A stretch of 52,293 bases of DNA. Source: Acholeplasmatales bacterium (GTDB lineage: Bacteria > Bacillota_I > Bacilli_A > Acholeplasmatales > Anaeroplasmataceae). Shown here in pieces: positions 38,333 to 50,561 of this stretch; within the stretch, counting starts at the first letter, position 1, and each line of letters begins with the position of its first letter. The notes beneath the pieces were generated by a model, which worked only from the letters and a program-made list of their open reading frames with translations, was not told the DNA's origin and did no database searches. The translations under genes were made by a program, and so were the position numbers. The DNA is taken from assembly GCA_024697825.1 (NCBI GenBank), contig JAILEP010000098.1, forward strand, positions 1 to 52,293, read 5' to 3'.

Positions 38333-41300
38333 TTATTGCCACTTATTAACGATCTTTCCAAGGTTTTGGAATCCCTTCTTAATCCATGGAACAACATATT
38401 GTAAGAACTTCATTAATGGAGCTGCGGCTAAGCATAGGCATAGACAGAAAATTCTTTCTGTTAAGCTTAATGCTCTAATTAAGCCACCAGTTGTAACATT
38501 AACTGAAACCTCATAGTCAGTCTTGATTGAGGCAAATTTATAATAATATTTGCCATCCTCACCCTTATAGAATGTAGGATTTAAATTCTTGCCCTCATAT
38601 AGATATTCAGTATACCAGCCTTCAATTATATAATGATTAGCCTCTGTTACATCAATTGATGGACCAAACTGCTTATCACTTAATGAAACCTCAGTTGTAA
38701 CTAAATTATCGTTCTTCTTAATAGAATATACTGAAGCTCTAGCCTGAACATCTAGTGATAATTCACTACCAGCCTCATTAACCTTTATAGCGTCACCATT
38801 AACATCAGTAAATGATGCATAATCGTTTGTTGCGAAATTTTCAAAAGTAAAATCTGCAACTAGGTCATTATCTAAATCGACTGTCTCTCCAGCAATAACC
38901 TTGTATACCTTATCATATTCATCATAATATACATATTCATAATCAGTAGCCTCTTCAGTGCTATAGATAGTATATGTATTAACACCAGAAGGTAAAGCTT
39001 TAGCTAGACCATATAATTCAAATACAGTAATACCAGTATTAACTGCATCGAAGTAAACAGTCATTTCCTTCTCTCCTGATGAATTAAGTCTATTACCAAT
39101 AGTTGAAACAGTTGGCATAGAAACGAAATATGTTTCACTACTTGTAGATGACTTCTTTACAGCCTCACCATTAACTAATAATTCAAGATAATGCTCACCT
39201 GGAGTAATATTGATTGTAACATCAAGCTCATTCATCGCAGCCATCTGGGCAAATGATGGAGTGATATACCACTGCTCATCATTAATGAAGATATTGTTAC
39301 CTTCAATTTCTACTGTAGGTAGGATACAATACTGAACTGTTGCAGAATCTGCATCGCTTGATGCGCCATAATTTAGATTATATCCATAATATTCATTTTC
39401 CTTAGTTAATGTAGTATATAGAGGATTAGTATAATCTGATAAATAGACCATACCATTTCTATCAATGATTAAATCATCCTCAATATTTGTATAATAAGTA
39501 ATATCATTAATCTTATAGCCACCAGCGTAAATCTTACCATACTTATCATAATTAATATCTGGGATTTCAATCTCTACATTGATTTCAGAGTTATTAATAG
39601 CATAATTATAATTTTCTGAATTAGCACGTGTAAGAACTGGAGTATCAAAGTTATTATTAGTCTTTAAATCATTAACCTTACCATCAATTACATAATAGTT
39701 AGCACTTGATACTGCAACTCTTGGATATTCATCTAGGGTTTCAATAATTGCATTACTATTAGTATATTCAAATAATGAATGAATAGGTCTAAATTCAAGT
39801 AGATTAGGTAATAATGTAATAGATAATATAAATCCTGTGTAGCTAATTGTACATAGAATCTTACGTAATGTAGTAAATGGCTTACAAGCCTTGAATAATA
39901 CCATTAAGCTTGTATGTGTTGCAACAATAGCCATAATTGTTGTAAGTGATAAATCATCTAAGTTTAAATTGCCTTCAAGTGCGAAGATAATTACAGATAA
40001 TGTAACAATTACAATCGCACCTGGTAGGGCCTTCTTAATAACATTGTTTAAGAATCTACCCTTAACCGGTCTATTATTAGGCTCATTTACTAAGAATAAT
40101 GAAGGTAAGCCAATAGCTAAAATATCAATTAATATTAATTGCTTTGGTGTAATAGGATATACACCAGTGAATATTGCGATAATACCAAGTAATAATGAGA
40201 AGAAAGTCTTAGTTAAGAATAGAGACGCAACACTTGTTACGTTATTGATAACTCTTCTACCTTCTGCAACTACACTAGGCATTGAACCGAAATTAGAATC
40301 AGTTAAAACTAGATGTGAGCAATTTCTTGTAGCCTCACTACCAGAGCCTAAAGCAATTGAACAATCAGCCTCACGTAAAGCTAAGATATCGTTAACACCA
40401 TCACCAGTCATAGCAACAGTCTTATCAGCCTTCTTAAGTGTCTGAATAATAATCTTCTTTTGATTTGGAGATACACGTCCAAAAATCTTATATTTAAGGG
40501 CAGCACGTGCAACCTCTACATCACTCATACCATCAAGAGATACAAAATTTTCAGCATCAGGTACTCCTGCTCGCATACTAATCTTAGATACAGTGATCGG
40601 GTTATCACCTGAGATAACTCTAACCTCAACACCTGATTCCTTAAAATATTTAATTGTTGCGATAGCATCAGGTCTGATGTTATCCTCAATTAAAATCATC
40701 GCAACTACTTCAACAAATGCCTTAGGTAATTCACCATTTTGGATTTCACCATCCTGGTGGGCAAGACATAATACACGATAGCCTAGCTTAGCATATTTTT
40801 CAACATCCTTAGCTACTCTCTTATAATATTCACCTAAGGCGAATTCTGGAGCACCAAGAATGAATGTACCATAATTATCAAATGTTACAGCCTGATATTT
40901 TCTTTGTGAAGAGAATGGAATAGCTGCAGAGCTCTTCATTCTTCTACCAAGACCGAACTTATTAATTAATGCCTCACTAGTCATATTACGATCTGGTAAA
41001 GCATTTAATATAGCTGACACAATATTCTTTGTTGCAAGACCCTGAACCTGGTTATAATCAATAACATTCTTTACAACCATTGTACCATCAGTAATTGTAC
41101 CAGTCTTATCTAGACAGATACAGTTAACTCTTGCAAGCATTTCAATACAGTATAATTCCTGAACAAGTACATGTCTTTGTCCTAATCTAATTACACCTAC
41201 ATATAGGGCAATAGATGACATTAGGAATAATCCTGATGGAATCATACCTATCATGGCACCTGCAGTTTTTCTTACTGTATTAAAGAATGTAACATCATCA

Positions 41301-42346
41301 TTGAAATACATTCTAATAAATAAAGTCACACCGATAAGAATTACCGGAATTGACATAAACTTAATAATTAAATTTAAGGAAATTAATAAATCACTCTTTG
41401 GCTTCTTATAGGCCTTAGCCTGATTAGAAAGCTTTTCAATATAATTATCCTTACCAACCTTATCAACTCTAGCCTTACACTTTCCTGCAACTACGAATGA
41501 ACCAGAAAGTAGCTGATCACCTGGCTTTTTAATAATGGCATCACTTTCACCTGTTAAAAGTGATTCATTTACCTCAACCTGTCCTTCAACAACAATTGAG
41601 TCAGCACAAATCTGCTTACCACTATCAAGTAGAATTAAATCATCTAATACAACCTCATCAACAGGAATTTCCTTATTGATGCCATTACGCTTAACAATAG
41701 CGTAAGGGGCATTCATTAGAGATAAGCCATCAATCATCTTTTTAGCTCTAATTTCTTGAATAATACCAATTGTAATATTAATAAGTACAATTAATAAGAA
41801 TGATAAATCTGTAATTGGCTCCCATCTTTCATAAATGACAGATAAGGCAATTAAAATACCTGCAATAATGAAAATTAAAATATTGAAGAATGTAACTACA
41901 TTAGAAAATACAATTCTTCCAATAGACTTAGTCTTCATTTCACCTGTCTTATTGACAAGCTCATCAAGGATTCTCTCCTCAACAACCTCATTTGGTAGAC
42001 CAAATTCAGGATCAGTATCATATCTTAATAGGGTAGATGGATGCTTCTTAAGCTCTCTACGATGCTTCTTGATTTTCTTCATCTTTTCCTTATTAAGTTT
42101 CTTCTTTTCCTTTTCCTCAGCCTTGCGAATTTTCTTTTGTTCGCTCTTAGGCTGCATTTCGACCTCTTCTAAAACACGAGCTCTAGATTCATGAACCTCT
42201 ATCTTATCGACAGGATTCTGATATACAGCCGCATCTCCATCATCAGAATCTGATTCATCCGCAGTTAAATCCTCATCTGCTGTCTTAGCCAAATATTCAG
42301 TTAGATCCTTCTCGTCGAATTCATCAAAATTCTGGTCCTTCTTCAT
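38333..42346 (-). CDS. Giant CtpE-like P-type cation ATPase with large extracytoplasmic insert
   Basis: 1337 residues. Residues 1-104 are cytoplasmic, first acidic then Lys-rich. The P-type core follows: M1-M2 (about 148-196), actuator TGES (265-268), M3-M4 (319-388, IPSGLF), DKTGT phosphorylation site (Asp413), KTVAMTGDGVND (642-653) and helices to about 850. Residues 855-1285 are hydrophilic, Tyr/Asn/Thr-rich and probably beta-rich; a last hydrophobic segment follows at 1294-1320. Core motifs resemble mycobacterial CtpE-type calcium pumps, which lack this insert. GGGAGG overlaps the mrnC stop, so it is translated with mrnC. Confidence 0.88.
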   Translation of the reverse strand: MKKDQNFDEFDEKDLTEYLAKTADEDLTADESDSDDGDAAVYQNPVDKIEVHESRARVLEEVEMQPKSEQKKIRKAEEKEKKKLNKEKMKKIKKHRRELKKHPSTLLRYDTDPEFGLPNEVVEERILDELVNKTGEMKTKSIGRIVFSNVVTFFNILIFIIAGILIALSVIYERWEPITDLSFLLIVLINITIGIIQEIRAKKMIDGLSLMNAPYAIVKRNGINKEIPVDEVVLDDLILLDSGKQICADSIVVEGQVEVNESLLTGESDAIIKKPGDQLLSGSFVVAGKCKARVDKVGKDNYIEKLSNQAKAYKKPKSDLLISLNLIIKFMSIPVILIGVTLFIRMYFNDDVTFFNTVRKTAGAMIGMIPSGLFLMSSIALYVGVIRLGQRHVLVQELYCIEMLARVNCICLDKTGTITDGTMVVKNVIDYNQVQGLATKNIVSAILNALPDRNMTSEALINKFGLGRRMKSSAAIPFSSQRKYQAVTFDNYGTFILGAPEFALGEYYKRVAKDVEKYAKLGYRVLCLAHQDGEIQNGELPKAFVEVVAMILIEDNIRPDAIATIKYFKESGVEVRVISGDNPITVSKISMRAGVPDAENFVSLDGMSDVEVARAALKYKIFGRVSPNQKKIIIQTLKKADKTVAMTGDGVNDILALREADCSIALGSGSEATRNCSHLVLTDSNFGSMPSVVAEGRRVINNVTSVASLFLTKTFFSLLLGIIAIFTGVYPITPKQLILIDILAIGLPSLFLVNEPNNRPVKGRFLNNVIKKALPGAIVIVTLSVIIFALEGNLNLDDLSLTTIMAIVATHTSLMVLFKACKPFTTLRKILCTISYTGFILSITLLPNLLEFRPIHSLFEYTNSNAIIETLDEYPRVAVSSANYYVIDGKVNDLKTNNNFDTPVLTRANSENYNYAINNSEINVEIEIPDINYDKYGKIYAGGYKINDITYYTNIEDDLIIDRNGMVYLSDYTNPLYTTLTKENEYYGYNLNYGASSDADSATVQYCILPTVEIEGNNIFINDEQWYITPSFAQMAAMNELDVTINITPGEHYLELLVNGEAVKKSSTSSETYFVSMPTVSTIGNRLNSSGEKEMTVYFDAVNTGITVFELYGLAKALPSGVNTYTIYSTEEATDYEYVYYDEYDKVYKVIAGETVDLDNDLVADFTFENFATNDYASFTDVNGDAIKVNEAGSELSLDVQARASVYSIKKNDNLVTTEVSLSDKQFGPSIDVTEANHYIIEGWYTEYLYEGKNLNPTFYKGEDGKYYYKFASIKTDYEVSVNVTTGGLIRALSLTERIFCLCLCLAAAPLMKFLQYVVPWIKKGFQNLGKIVNKWQ

Positions 42347-44117: not shown

Positions 44118-46073
44118 TTATGCTGTTACGTTTGCTGAAACGAAATCAGAAACGAATGAATCAAATGCTGATAAATCAGAACCTGCAGTATAAACTGCTA
44201 CATTATTTACCTTTGAATCATTATATGTATAAGCAACTGTATCATCAACAACTAAATATGTAGCTGTTAAAGTATATGTATAAGATGATGCCTTAGTGTA
44301 AACACCATCAGCATATGTATAATATGCAGTTGCAGTGAAGCTTGTAGATGCATTAACTGTTGTATCCTCAGTTGCAACTAAAGTATAGTAAGTCTTGCCC
44401 TCTGTATATTCAGAAGCCTTAGAATAAACTGTACCAGATAATGTATAATAATCAGCTGCTGTAAAATCAGTCTCTGAAGTTACTGTAGCTTCAGTAGCAA
44501 CAAGTGTGTAGTATGCTGGAACCTCAGTTACATCGAACTTTACACCCTTAATTGTAGCTGTTGATCCTAAAACTGGAGAGCTTACCTGCTTTTCAAACTG
44601 AGTAATTTCAGTTGAAGTTGCTTCTCTTGTAGTTGCTGCATAAACTGCGATTGCACCAGTCTTTGCTGCATAGTAGCAATCAGTTACCTCATCGAATACC
44701 TGATTTAAACCACCAACGAAGCCACCGATAAATGCATGATGACCACCTTCAGTTAACACATTTTCATTTAATACTTCAATATCTGAAGTTGTTGTTTCAG
44801 AAGTAACCTCTGCACCAGAAGAAACTGTAATATCTGCAAGTGCGAAACACTTAGTAATCTTTAATGAACCTGAATGATTTGTGCCAACGAAGCCACCAAC
44901 AACTAAATTGAATTCATTTGTATATGAAGTAGCTGTAGATCTAGTTAAAGCGATTGTTGCATCTGCATAGCAATTAGTTAATAAGCTTGGAGATGAAACA
45001 TCACCTGAGAAGCCACCAGCATGTACGAATGCATCTGCTGTAGTTGATGTACTAATGAAATATAATACACCCTTAATTGAACCTGCTGCTGAACAGCCTG
45101 TTGCTAAGCCTGTAAAATCATCTGTACCAACTGCATTACCATCAAGTAAGCCAGCGAATAAACCAACTGATACTCTCTGACGCATTCTTGTAAAGTTAAT
45201 ATCAATTGCAGTTGCCTGAACATTTACGAATGTAGAAGCTGATGCATAACCAGCAACACCACCAACTCTTAAAATTGCTGATGTATTACCCTGAATATCA
45301 ATATCAACATTATTTACTGTAATATCCTCTACTACAGTTTCAATTGCTGTACCTACTACTGCACCAATCTGAGCTGAAGCACGTCCTGAAGAGAAATCAC
45401 CAATAACTGTATCCATTGTGAAATTCTTAATTGTTGCTTCTTCTGTATAATTGAATAATGCTGTATTTGTCTGAGCATATAATGTTACATTAGAAATTGT
45501 ATGACCCTGTCCATCAAATGTTCCCTTAAATGGATTTGATGAAGAAAGCTTTGATTCACTTAAATCAACACCTGTGAAGTCTAAGTCAGCTGTTAATACG
45601 AAATTACCTTCAACATCTTCATTAATCTTTGTAATAAATTCATCTGTAGTTGCAATTTCTGTTGCTGAATCAGCACTACCAGTTGAGCTTGTCTTAGCCT
45701 TTAATGAAGTAATTAATTCATCAGAGCTATCATAAGTGATGTATAGCTTGAATAAATAATATGTGTCAGAATCTAAACCTGTGAAAGTTGTTTCTGCTTC
45801 AGTATAGCTACCATCAAATGTAATCTTGTTTACCTGTGAATCGTAAACCTCATTACCATCCTCATCGTATGAGTACTGCTTTACTGTAGGCACTGCTGCA
45901 CCACTAGTAAGATTGTCATTAGCTGCAAAGTCGATTGTGATAGTTACTGTAGTCATTGTTGATGTATAAGACATCGCTGCTTCAACACCAGATGCGTTAC
46001 CACCGCATGATGCTAAAATAACAAGACCAAGAACTGCCGCAAGCATTGCAGTTATTCTTTTAAATATTTTCAT
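44118..46073 (-). CDS. Surface lipoprotein with GLUG-type repeats and C-terminal tandem repeats
   Basis: 651 residues. A signal peptide ends in the lipobox LASC, with lipid-modified Cys23. Residues about 30-125 look like a beta-sandwich domain. Residues about 150-490 form a probable beta-helix with GLUG-like turns (GTFDGQGHTISNVTL, GGVAGYAS, AGGFSGDVSS, GGFVGTNHSG, GGFVGGLN). Residues 521-601 hold two similar modules of about 40 residues starting YYTLVATE. There are very few basic residues, as in secreted proteins. It is likely an adhesin or substrate-binding surface protein; the ligand is unknown. It is transcribed from its own promoter. Confidence 0.82.
   Translation of the reverse strand: MKIFKRITAMLAAVLGLVILASCGGNASGVEAAMSYTSTMTTVTITIDFAANDNLTSGAAVPTVKQYSYDEDGNEVYDSQVNKITFDGSYTEAETTFTGLDSDTYYLFKLYITYDSSDELITSLKAKTSSTGSADSATEIATTDEFITKINEDVEGNFVLTADLDFTGVDLSESKLSSSNPFKGTFDGQGHTISNVTLYAQTNTALFNYTEEATIKNFTMDTVIGDFSSGRASAQIGAVVGTAIETVVEDITVNNVDIDIQGNTSAILRVGGVAGYASASTFVNVQATAIDINFTRMRQRVSVGLFAGLLDGNAVGTDDFTGLATGCSAAGSIKGVLYFISTSTTADAFVHAGGFSGDVSSPSLLTNCYADATIALTRSTATSYTNEFNLVVGGFVGTNHSGSLKITKCFALADITVSSGAEVTSETTTSDIEVLNENVLTEGGHHAFIGGFVGGLNQVFDEVTDCYYAAKTGAIAVYAATTREATSTEITQFEKQVSSPVLGSTATIKGVKFDVTEVPAYYTLVATEATVTSETDFTAADYYTLSGTVYSKASEYTEGKTYYTLVATEDTTVNASTSFTATAYYTYADGVYTKASSYTYTLTATYLVVDDTVAYTYNDSKVNNVAVYTAGSDLSAFDSFVSDFVSANVTA
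44271..44513 (-). repeat. Tandem coding repeat in the lipoprotein gene
   Basis: Two adjacent modules of about 41 and 40 codons share YYTLVATE, a Thr/Ser-rich middle, F-TA--YYT and VY-KAS-YT. This is an in-frame expansion within the 3' part of the gene. Confidence 0.8.
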
Positions 46074-46131
46074 GTTAATACCTCTTCAAAAATACTGAAT
46101 TAATTATATTAATTCGAATTTAAACATAAAT

Positions 46132-46160
46132 ATTATAACTTAAAAGACATTATATATCAA
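46132..46160 (-). promoter_or_regulatory. Promoter of the lipoprotein gene
   Basis: Minus-strand TTGATA (46155-46160), a 17-base spacer and TATAAT (46132-46137), about 55 bases upstream of the ATG. Confidence 0.8.
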
Positions 46161-46281
46161 ACAAAAAAGGAAAAAAGGTTGTTGTTCTCAAACTGGTGGT
46201 CTAAATGGCACATTTAAGGCACGATTGTATACTAGAAATTTGACAAATGTGTGTTATAATCGTTACGGTAGCGGAAAATGC

Positions 46282-46303
46282 TGTAAATAAATATTTATTT
46301 ACA
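46282..46303. promoter_or_regulatory. Perfect 22-bp palindrome, probable operator
   Basis: The half-site TGTAAATAAAT is followed directly by its exact reverse complement. The right end provides the -35 hexamer of the activase promoter. Outer AAAATGC and GCATTTT arms flank it. A repressor bound here would block transcription; the regulator is not identified. Confidence 0.65.
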
Positions 46304-46326
46304 TTTCTGCATTTTACAACTATAAT
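46298..46326 (+). promoter_or_regulatory. Promoter of the activase/dehydratase operon
   Basis: TTTACA (46298-46303), a 17-base spacer and TATAAT (46321-46326), followed by an AAGGGG ribosome site and the ATG at 46359. Confidence 0.8.
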
Positions 46327-46358
46327 AGTAGTGTTGTAAAAAAGAAGGGGTTTTTAAT

Positions 46359-49277
46359 ATGCTTAGAATGGGACTTGATGTCGGTTCTACTACAATAAAG
46401 TGCGTTGTTATGGATGAAAATGACCACATTATTTACAAGGACTATAAGAGACATTATTCACACATAAAAGATAATATCATTGATAAGCTAAAGGAACTTA
46501 GAGAGTCAGGCATAATCGGAGATAAGATTAACCTTGCTATTTCTGGTTCTGCTGGTATGGGTATGGCTGATGGTGCACATATTCCTTTCGTTCAGGAGGT
46601 ATATGCTACACGTGTTGCTGCCCAAAGACTTATTCCAGGTACTGACGTTATCATTGAGCTTGGTGGAGAGGACGCAAAAATTCTTTTCCTAACCGATGGT
46701 ATGGAAGTAAGAATGAATGGTTCTTGTGCCGGTGGTACTGGTGCCTTCATTGACCAGATGGCTACTCTATTAAATGTTGATATTACAGAAATCAATGGTC
46801 TTGCAATGAACCATCAGAAGATTTATTCTATCGCTTCTCGTTGTGGTGTATTCGCAAAATCTGATATCCAACCACTTCTTAACCAGGGCGCATCTAAGTC
46901 TGATGTTGCTGCATCTATTTTCCATGCAGTAGTTAACCAGACAGTTGGTGGCTTAGCTCAGGGTAGAGATATTAAAGGTAAGGTTGCATATCTAGGTGGA
47001 CCATTAACCTTCTTATCAGAATTAAAGCAGGCATTCGATGATGTTTTACATACAGAAGGTATTTCTCCAAAGAATTCATTATATTATGTTTCTATTGGTG
47101 CTGCATTCTGTGCAAAGGAAACAATCGATGTTGATCAGACAATCAAGAATTTAATTGAATTCTCAAATAAGGCAACATATGCTTATAACTCTCCTTTATT
47201 TAAGGATGAGAATGAATATAACGAATTCATCGAAAGACATTCAAAGGCTAGAGTTGAAACTCTTCCTCTTGAAGAATACGATGGACCACTTTATTTAGGT
47301 ATTGATTCTGGTTCTACTACCTTAAAGCTTGTATTAATCGATACAGATGGTAACATCCGTTTTGATAGATACCAGCCTAATAGAGGTAACCCAGTATCAG
47401 TTATTAAAGAGATTTTAGCTGAATTATTCAGTAAATATCCTAACCTAAACATTCAAGGCTCTGCCTCAACAGGATATGGTGAGGATTTAGCTAAGAATGC
47501 ATTTAAGCTAGATGGTGGCTTAGTTGAAACTATGGCTCACTATATGGCCGCAAAGAAATTTATGCCAAATGTTGATTTCATTATCGATATTGGTGGACAA
47601 GATATTAAGTGCTTTAAGATTGAAAATGACGCAATCGCAAATATCTTCCTAAATGAAGCATGCTCATCAGGATGTGGTTCCTTCCTACAGACATTTGCCA
47701 ATGCACTTGGCTATGATATTAAGGATTTCGCACAGATTGGTTTAATGGCACCAAAGCCAGTTGACCTAGGCTCTAGATGTACAGTATTTATGAACTCATC
47801 TGTTAAGCAGGCTCAAAAGGATGGTGCAACTATTGATAACATTTCTGCAGGTCTTTCAATTTCAGTTGTAAAGAACGCATTATATAAGGTTATCCGTGCT
47901 ACATCTAAGGAACAGCTAGGTAAGCACATTGTAGTTCAGGGTGGTACATTCCTAAATAAGGCTGTACTTAGAGCCTTTGAGCGTGAATTAGACCTAGAGG
48001 TTGTATGTCCTAATATTGCTGGTCTAATGGGTGCTTATGGTGCTGCACTATATGCTAAATCATTAAAGGTTGAACATTCTACTACTATCACAGCTCCTGA
48101 GCTTGCAAGCTTTAAGCATGAGGTTAAAAACTTCACATGTGGTGGATGTAATAACCACTGCTTATTAACATTAAATACATTTGGAGATAATCCTAATAAA
48201 TTTATTTCTGGTAATAAGTGTGATAAGCCACTTGGTATTAAGGCAGATAAAAAGGGTAAAAACCTTTATGAATATACAAGAAACAAGCTTGAATCATATA
48301 AGCCAGTTGAAAATGCTCCAAGAGGAGAAATCGCAATTCCTCTTGTACTTAATATGTATGAGCTATTCCCATTCTGGTATCGATTCTTTACAGAGCTAGG
48401 CTTCTCAGTTAAATCTAGTGGTTTCTCTAATGCAAAGATCTATTCACTTGGTCAGCATACAATCCCATCAGATACTGTTTGCTATCCTGCAAAGCTTGTT
48501 CATGGTCATATTGAAAAGCTAATCAATGATGGCAACAAGAATATCTTCTATCCATGTATGTCATATAATTATGATGAGCATATGGGAGATAATCATTATA
48601 ACTGCCCAATTGTAGCTTATTATCCACAAAATATTTTAAATAATGTTTCTAGTATTAAGGATGTAACATTCATTTCTGATTTTATCGGTATTGATGTTAG
48701 AGAATTATTCGATAAGAAGATTAAGCTTGTATTAGATAAATACTTTAAGGGTATTTCTAAAAAGGAAATAAAGAAGGCCGCTGATGCCGCATATAAGGAA
48801 TATGAGGATTATCTAGCAGATATTCGTGCAACTGGTGCTGAATATATTAAGGAAGCTAGAGAAAAGCATATGGAAATTATCGTATTAGCTGGTAGACCAT
48901 ATCATGTTGACCCACAGGTTAACCATGGTATTGATAAGCTAATTACTTCTTTAGGTGCTTATGTAGTAAGTGAGGAATCAGTTTCTCATTTAAATACTAA
49001 ATTCCCAGTGCATGTATTAAATCAGTGGACATATCATTCAAGATTATATTCTGCAGCTAAATACTGTACTCATGAGGATGATATGAATCTAGTACAGCTT
49101 GTATCATTTGGTTGTGGTGTTGATGCCGTAACCACAGATGAATGTAAATCAATTCTTGAATCTAAGGGTAAAATCTATACTCAGATTAAGATTGATGAAA
49201 TAACTAACCTTGGTGCTGTAAAGATAAGACTTAGAAGCTTATTTGCAGCTCTTAAGCAGAAAAGGGAGGAAAAATAA
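46359..49277 (+). CDS. Double 2-hydroxyacyl-CoA dehydratase activase with DUF2229 domain
   Basis: 972 residues. There are two ASKHA ATPase activase domains of the HgdC/BcrAD type. The first (about 1-255) starts GLDVGSTTIKCVVM and has cluster cysteines Cys123 and Cys162. The second (about 311-570) starts GIDSGSTTLKLVLI with Cys435, Cys439 and Cys474. A DUF2229-type region follows, opening with four Cys (594, 597, 601, 621). Such activases use ATP to push single electrons onto partner iron-sulfur proteins. The natural substrate is unknown. The downstream gene begins at the next base. Confidence 0.9.
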   Translation: MLRMGLDVGSTTIKCVVMDENDHIIYKDYKRHYSHIKDNIIDKLKELRESGIIGDKINLAISGSAGMGMADGAHIPFVQEVYATRVAAQRLIPGTDVIIELGGEDAKILFLTDGMEVRMNGSCAGGTGAFIDQMATLLNVDITEINGLAMNHQKIYSIASRCGVFAKSDIQPLLNQGASKSDVAASIFHAVVNQTVGGLAQGRDIKGKVAYLGGPLTFLSELKQAFDDVLHTEGISPKNSLYYVSIGAAFCAKETIDVDQTIKNLIEFSNKATYAYNSPLFKDENEYNEFIERHSKARVETLPLEEYDGPLYLGIDSGSTTLKLVLIDTDGNIRFDRYQPNRGNPVSVIKEILAELFSKYPNLNIQGSASTGYGEDLAKNAFKLDGGLVETMAHYMAAKKFMPNVDFIIDIGGQDIKCFKIENDAIANIFLNEACSSGCGSFLQTFANALGYDIKDFAQIGLMAPKPVDLGSRCTVFMNSSVKQAQKDGATIDNISAGLSISVVKNALYKVIRATSKEQLGKHIVVQGGTFLNKAVLRAFERELDLEVVCPNIAGLMGAYGAALYAKSLKVEHSTTITAPELASFKHEVKNFTCGGCNNHCLLTLNTFGDNPNKFISGNKCDKPLGIKADKKGKNLYEYTRNKLESYKPVENAPRGEIAIPLVLNMYELFPFWYRFFTELGFSVKSSGFSNAKIYSLGQHTIPSDTVCYPAKLVHGHIEKLINDGNKNIFYPCMSYNYDEHMGDNHYNCPIVAYYPQNILNNVSSIKDVTFISDFIGIDVRELFDKKIKLVLDKYFKGISKKEIKKAADAAYKEYEDYLADIRATGAEYIKEAREKHMEIIVLAGRPYHVDPQVNHGIDKLITSLGAYVVSEESVSHLNTKFPVHVLNQWTYHSRLYSAAKYCTHEDDMNLVQLVSFGCGVDAVTTDECKSILESKGKIYTQIKIDEITNLGAVKIRLRSLFAALKQKREEK

Positions 49278-50561
49278 ATGGTAGATACTTATGAAGAAGA
49301 CTTCAACTATCCCCGCTTTACTGAAGATATGGTAAAGGACCACACTATTCTAATCCCTCAGATGCTACCAATTCATATGTCTTTATTTGAATCAGCTTTA
49401 ATTCAGGCTGGCTATAAGGTAGAGATTATGAGAAATGAAGGTCCTGAGGTTGTTCAGGAGGGTCTAAAGTATGTACATAATGATACATGCTATCCAGCTC
49501 TTTTAGTTATCGGACAGTTCATTGATAATTTAAATCATAGAAACGATCATGATAAGCTAGTTCTTCTTATCACACAAACAGGTGGTGGATGCCGTGCATC
49601 TAACTACCTACACCTTTTAAGAAAGGCACTTAAGAAGGCTGGCTATGGATTTATTCCAGTTGTATCACTTAATGCCTCTAACCTAGAAAAGGATTCAGGC
49701 TTTAAGCTTACATTCCCATTAATTAGAAAGCTTGTCCCTGCAATCACTTATGGTGATGAGCTTATGTATTTACGTAACAAAACTCAAACATATGAGGTAA
49801 ACAAGGGTGAAACTGCAGCTTTAGTTGATAAATGGCTAAAGAAGATTTCAGATCAGTTTGCTAATAAAAAGGGTATTTCACATGGAGATGTAAAGAAAAA
49901 CCTTAACCAAATGGCTAAGGAATTTGACGCAATCCAGGTTGATTTATCACATAAAAAGCCAAGAGTTGGTATCGTAGGTGAAATTTATATTAAATATGCA
50001 TCCTTAGGTAACAACCATCTTGAGGACTTCTTAGTTTCTCAGGACGCAGAGGTAATGGTACCAGGCTTATATGGATTCCTATTATATTGTGTACAGAATA
50101 ATATATATGATTATGAAATCTATGGTAAGAATAAGAGAACAGCTAAGATTTCTAAGCTACTTCTTTGGTATTTAAGACGTCAGGAAACAATGATGATTAA
50201 TGCCATGAAGGATACTAAATTCTCACCAATGAATTATTTCGCTCATACTAAGGAGCTATCTAATGGTGTATTAGACCATGGTACTAAGATGGGCGAGGGC
50301 TGGTTACTTACAGCTGAAATGATGGAATTAATCGAGGAAGGCTATGAGAACATTATTTGTGCTCAGCCATTTGGATGTCTTCCTAACCACATTTGTGGTA
50401 AGGGCGTTATGAAGAAGATTAAATCAATTCATCAGGACGCAAACATTGTCGCAATCGATTATGACCCATCTGCCACAAAGGTAAATCAGGAAAATAGAAT
50501 CAAGCTAATGCTTGCAATCGCAAGAGAGCGTATTACAGAAGATGACAAAGCCGAGCTATAA
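49278..50561 (+). CDS. 2-hydroxyacyl-CoA dehydratase-like iron-sulfur protein
   Basis: 427 residues, matching the C-terminal part of giant activase fusion proteins and related to HgdB and double-cubane cluster proteins. Candidate cluster ligands are Cys71 (NDTCYPA), Cys105 (GGGCRASN), Cys361, Cys367 and Cys373 (CAQPFGCLPNHIC). GEGWLLTAEM is a typical family segment. It starts at the base after the activase stop codon with GGGAGG upstream. Together the two proteins total 1399 residues, about the size of the fused form known elsewhere. The reaction is not assigned. Confidence 0.85.
   Translation: MVDTYEEDFNYPRFTEDMVKDHTILIPQMLPIHMSLFESALIQAGYKVEIMRNEGPEVVQEGLKYVHNDTCYPALLVIGQFIDNLNHRNDHDKLVLLITQTGGGCRASNYLHLLRKALKKAGYGFIPVVSLNASNLEKDSGFKLTFPLIRKLVPAITYGDELMYLRNKTQTYEVNKGETAALVDKWLKKISDQFANKKGISHGDVKKNLNQMAKEFDAIQVDLSHKKPRVGIVGEIYIKYASLGNNHLEDFLVSQDAEVMVPGLYGFLLYCVQNNIYDYEIYGKNKRTAKISKLLLWYLRRQETMMINAMKDTKFSPMNYFAHTKELSNGVLDHGTKMGEGWLLTAEMMELIEEGYENIICAQPFGCLPNHICGKGVMKKIKSIHQDANIVAIDYDPSATKVNQENRIKLMLAIARERITEDDKAEL

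Follow-up and report, generated by a model that had tools for sequence, protein, structure and literature searches.

Dimeric repressors of the TetR, PadR, MarR and GntR types bind palindromic operators that can overlap the -35 hexamer of the promoter they control. Other regulators of AT-rich genomes recognize dyads of defined spacing, with a consensus of TGT-N11-ACA for GlnR/TnrA, TTGTGAA-N4-TTCACAA for Rex and a TGAATGA-type motif for B. subtilis FadR. In anaerobes, acyl-CoA dehydratase activases of the kind studied here initiate low-potential electron transfer driven by ATP, and our literature search found nothing on the transcriptional control of an activase gene in Anaeroplasmataceae-type bacteria. 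Bidirectional promoters have been described to arise from symmetry of the -10 element (Warman et al., NAR 2026, PMC12825309). In another report, an activator-related gene of S. mutans was 2.2-fold up on manganese depletion (PMC6952196), a response that we considered too distant to guide the study of activase control.

The window, that is, the whole 52,293-nucleotide stretch of DNA analysed, comes from a genome (G000) placed in an Anaeroplasma-type genus, its nearest named records being Acholeplasmatales and Anaeroplasma, including A. bactoclasticum. The host is a wall-less rumen bacterium. Two sister species (G008 and G009), with activases 88% identical, were available for comparison.

The activase operon and its promoter region

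The locus comprises the following features, in order of position.

44118-46073, minus strand, GLUG-motif lipoprotein gene, divergent neighbour of the activase gene
46132-46160, minus strand, divergent promoter TTGATA-17-TATAAT of the lipoprotein gene, a conserved block in the three-species alignment
46252-46260, plus strand, candidate promoter P1 with extended -10 TGTTATAAT, kept in the two sister species
46282-46303, no strand, candidate operator TGTAAATAAATATTTATTTACA, unique in its own genome at up to 3 mismatches
46298-46326, plus strand, promoter P2 (TTTACA-17-TATAAT), its -35 being the right end of the palindrome
46312-46341, no strand, second inverted repeat TTTTACAAC-N12-GTTGTAAAA, flanking the P2 -10
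46359-49277, plus strand, 972-aa acyl-CoA dehydratase activase (NCBIfam name) with BcrAD_BadFG domains and DUF2229
49278-50561, plus strand, 427-aa second gene directly after the activase, with weak DUF2229 similarity

The activase gene call of the original prediction, which was made from the letters of the window, was confirmed by a CoA_E_activ match, and the 972-aa protein has among its relatives the structurally solved activators of the 2-hydroxyglutaryl- and 2-hydroxyisocaproyl-CoA dehydratases. The 427-aa gene, which follows the activase in G008 and G009 also, is probably co-transcribed with it. Elsewhere in the window, a 1337-aa ORF (38333-42346) appears from its translation to be P-type ATPase-like, with a long extra C-terminal part.

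The candidate operator is a perfect 22-bp palindrome of two exact 11-base arms with zero spacer; A and T make up 18 of its 22 bases. It can also be parsed as two inverted TTATTTACA 9-mers with ATAT in the middle, halves that might be read as a DnaA-box. The same letters, coordinates and abutting half-sites had been described before, as had the use of the right end as a -35 hexamer, and both descriptions hold, with TTTACA at 46298-46303 standing 17 bases before TATAAT at 46321-46326. P2 matches the consensus at 11 of 12 positions, and its spacing and distance from the ATG agree with those of most orthologs' promoters. P1 has a weak -35 (TAGAAA), and the palindrome begins 21 nt past its extended -10. 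TGTAAA/TTTACA occurs four times inside 60 bases around P2. The second inverted repeat was not found in G008 or G009.

A two-fold symmetric site overlapping a promoter is the arrangement of an operator for a dimeric factor, and this is the arrangement of TGTAAATAAATATTTATTTACA. Our preferred reading, to which we give about an even chance on the sequence evidence, is that a dimeric DNA-binding protein regulates the activase operon with the palindrome as its operator. A bound dimer would cover the P2 -35 and, were P1 used, the palindrome would span roughly +15 to +37 in the transcript from P1; the same dimer could then block both promoters, which would be the simplest use of the site. P1 may be a real promoter, and the effect may be repression rather than activation. 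The centre of the palindrome (46292.5) lies about -40.5 from the inferred P2 start near 46333, and its overlap with the -35 resembles that of class II sites in CRP-type activation, as would be expected of an activator site in place of a repressor site. However, P2 is already so close to consensus that little help seems needed and the palindrome has no FNR/CRP-type half-site spacing; we consider this activator role improbable.

No terminator-like site was detected in 46050-46400, that is, no G+C-rich stem with a T run as in intrinsic terminators or attenuators, and Rfam returned no match to a known cis-acting RNA for 45900-46700 up to an E value of 1. No TATAAT lies within TGTAAATAAATATTTATTTACA, as it would in a symmetric -10 bidirectional promoter, and the nearest minus-strand promoter-like site (46340-46311) falls downstream of the palindrome, inside the second repeat.

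Alternatively, the palindrome could form a hairpin within the 5' leader of RNA made from P1 and act on stability or translation. For the leader (46267-46340) the folding energy is -19.8 kcal/mol, whereas shuffled versions average -9.7 (z -4.41), and the leader stretches of G008 and G009 gave z values of -2.15 and -2.85. Every DNA palindrome folds as RNA, however, and when the palindrome was kept fixed and 18 nt of flank were shuffled on each side, 398, 254 and 316 of 2000 sequences folded as well in the three species (254, 94 and 503 with 12 nt per side, the lowest proportion being 4.7% in G008). Because the flanks add little in all three species and Rfam holds no match, a role of the DNA itself accounts for the symmetry equally well. 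The ortholog-like promoter, moreover, is P2, whose transcript would lack the palindrome, and we consider a leader hairpin improbable.

Rarity of the palindrome

Under a first-order Markov model, 0.00065 palindromes with arms of at least 11 bases are expected in the 285-base noncoding stretch holding TGTAAATAAATATTTATTTACA, and 0.02 across the whole window. Two noncoding palindromes of this kind, TGTAAATAAATATTTATTTACA included, occur in 278 kb of its own genome (the window plus 20 stretches). A perfect palindrome with arms of at least 10 bases was found no more than 100 bases from the start in one of 90 promoter regions of the own genome, namely that of the activase, and one such palindrome was found among 124 promoter regions in 400 kb of sequence from other species of the genus. 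With a dyad score that tolerates spacers up to 3 and one mismatch, 7 of 102 promoters of the own genome, the activase promoter included, scored at least 10. The corresponding count was 8 of 238 non-activase promoters, with 27 of 238 (~11%) scoring at least 9, in a background from which the window's activase site was removed and in which some divergent gaps enter twice, once from each side. Since comparable dyads become commoner once small spacers and a mismatch are allowed, the palindrome is unusual, though not to an extreme degree for DNA so rich in A and T, and not unique in kind. Among the background stretches, TTATTGTATAATATACAATAA from a promoter region of the own genome and TTATTGTATGCATACAATAA from a genus relative resemble one operator of another regulator; TTATTGTATAATATACAATAA, being found in both orientations, probably lies in a shared divergent gap.

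The site might instead be an AT-rich promoter whose symmetry is accidental, with no function specific to the dyad and conservation confined to the -35, the -10 and an AT-rich spacer. The base composition of the palindrome and the 27 unrelated promoters scoring at least 9 agree with chance, but the modelled expectation for the noncoding stretch does not.

Activase promoters of related species

G000, G008 and G009 form a clade (support 100/100) with identical gene order around the activase. At the homologous place, G008 and G009 carry a dyad that differs from TGTAAATAAATATTTATTTACA, namely AAATGAAA-N4-TTTCATTT (AAATGAAATTTATTTCATTT in G008 and AAATGAAATATATTTCATTT in G009), whose 16 arm bases are all identical between the two. 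The MAFFT alignment places substitution and indels within the arms between G000 and its sisters; aligning the block by eye sets TAAATAAATATTTATTTACATTT against TAAATGAA-ATTTATTT-CATTT, which implies a slightly shifted dyad centre. An extended -10 (TGnTATAAT) is common to all three, with the dyad starting 21 (G000), 21 (G008) and 22 (G009) bases later. In the three-way alignment the dyad block ranks with the better conserved noncoding segments: up to 9 of 12 of its columns are identical, whereas the stretch separating the divergent promoters has 0-6 of 12. G023 has a further AAATGAAA-N4-TTTCATTT, which falls within a long open coding frame and was set aside.

Within the genus set (27 genomes, 26 with an activase hit), TGTAAATAAATATTTATTTACA was found within 3 mismatches at no other activase promoter. 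Footprinting upstream of orthologous operons, the check attached to the original prediction, therefore gave a divided answer: the letters are not conserved, whereas G008 and G009 do show dyad symmetry in the homologous position. That TGTAAATAAATATTTATTTACA itself is not common to the sister species favours a chance origin, against which the invariant arms of the sister dyad argue.

Most genus activase promoters consist of TTGACA/T or TTTACA/T, 17 bases and TATAAT, and end about 28-43 bases before the start, a location that P2 of the window also occupies. Many activase promoters of the genus carry different dyads, over the -10. One of these, AATAATATAATTATATTATT, matched 10 genomes and stands at the activase in eight of them (exact in seven, one mismatch in the eighth), the remaining two matches lying away from the activase; G013 has AATAATATTATAATATTATT at its activase promoter, with the AATAATATAATTATATTATT arms and a symmetric change of centre. 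By comparison of positions by eye, the dyad TTATATTAT-NN-ATAATATAA precedes the activase, with at most 1 mismatch, in 15 of the 52 genomes of the family that gave an activase hit; the family contains 20 exact copies, 13 of them at the activase and the other 7 at different places. Of the 26 genus activase promoters, 12 had a dyad score of at least 10, compared with 8 of the 238 other promoters, counts that are not independent as the species are related; scores of at least 9 were reached by 17 of the 26 and missed by nine, figures likewise inflated by shared ancestry. This enrichment, too, speaks against chance.

On a tree of 34 rows with dyad labels assigned by exact pattern, the labels were clustered, changing 10 times where shuffled labels averaged 17.0 changes. 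As the window's clade is nested among rows carrying the -10 dyad, that dyad was probably lost in the clade and another arose. It is conceivable, though in our judgement unlikely, that the Anaeroplasmataceae activase operon keeps dyad-symmetric core-promoter control while swapping dyads between lineages, a regulator specific to the gene having been exchanged or retuned repeatedly at one conserved target. The proposed series would run from TTATATTAT-NN-ATAATATAA, covering the spacer and -10, through AATAATATAATTATATTATT, placed over the -10, to AAATGAAA-N4-TTTCATTT and TGTAAATAAATATTTATTTACA upstream. Dyad turnover at one promoter would offer a small test case of operator evolution.

Search for a regulon and a regulator

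No second copy of TGTAAATAAATATTTATTTACA within 3 mismatches was found in its own genome (98.45% complete), and the proposed search for the same palindrome at other promoters hence yielded a single copy. Operators usually, if not universally, stand at the regulator's own gene or at regulon members; this one has a single place in the genome. With 2 mismatches allowed, the half-site pattern occurred 79 times in the own genome and the reversed control 32 times, the corresponding figures in other genomes being 89/61, 96/61 and 72/63; because the excess is present in those genomes too, no regulon emerges. A regulon defined by sequence was given up, since the palindrome and half-sites yielded no second promoter standing out from the reversed control. 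The failure to find a regulon is a further point for chance; taken with the modelled expectation, the sister dyad and the enrichment, a chance dyad appears somewhat unlikely.

In G008 and G009, whose own activase promoters are without it, an exact TTATATTAT-NN-ATAATATAA lies at the degV-fakA promoter. Exact matches also occur in G016, close to rpmB and a fakA-like gene, and in G011, where the site is an ACP-ketoacyl synthase pair, with further copies at an apparent rplU (L21), at thiI and in a trkA/lipoprotein gap. The degV promoters of other species, that of the window's genome included, are without this dyad. A fatty-acid regulon was dropped in view of the last three copies and of the absence from other degV promoters. 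Among the relatives' dyads, the free-centre pattern AATAATAT-N4-ATATTATT occurred at control level, so that only the exact 20-mer is activase-specific.

No regulator gene was found beside the activase operon in G000, G008 or G009, and none of the 8 TetR candidates in the own genome adjoins it or stands out from the rest.

Comparison with known systems

The operator reading is favoured by a perfect dyad on a near-consensus promoter, rarer than modelled chance, by the sister dyad at the homologous place and by dyad enrichment at genus activase promoters. It is weakened by letters that are not conserved, by the single genomic site with no adjacent regulator, and by the ~11% of other promoters scoring at least 9 together with the relatedness of the species compared. 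The palindrome is real and probably regulatory, an element of ordinary kind with a putative repressor role. From the earlier proposal of a dedicated repressor we retain an operator at the activase promoter as the best reading; the single copy, the lack of an adjacent regulator gene and the divergent letters at orthologs leave the dedicated repressor conjectural, and the position of the site would suit an activator equally well. Should the dyad prove to be an operator, it would provide a handle for finding the activase regulator.

The window palindrome shares with GlnR/TnrA sites an AT-rich dyad with TGT...ACA ends, but spans 22 bp from TGT to ACA in place of 17. It is AT-rich and dyad-symmetric like Rex sites, without the Rex half-site spacing. 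Its TAAATAAAT arms bear a possible likeness to TGAATGAAT of B. subtilis FadR, with G to A changes. The activase dyads of relatives, AATAATATAATTATATTATT and TTATATTAT-NN-ATAATATAA, hold TATAAT-type hexamers on both strands like the symmetric promoters described in PMC12825309; unlike those, the window palindrome has no -10 and carries TTTACA on both strands. No -10 for the reverse-strand TTTACA was recognized on reading the sequence. While it differs from operators of the TetR, PadR, MarR and GntR types in having neither an adjacent regulator gene nor a second site for autoregulation, the window palindrome shares with them a perfect dyad of ~20 bp placed on the core promoter of one operon.
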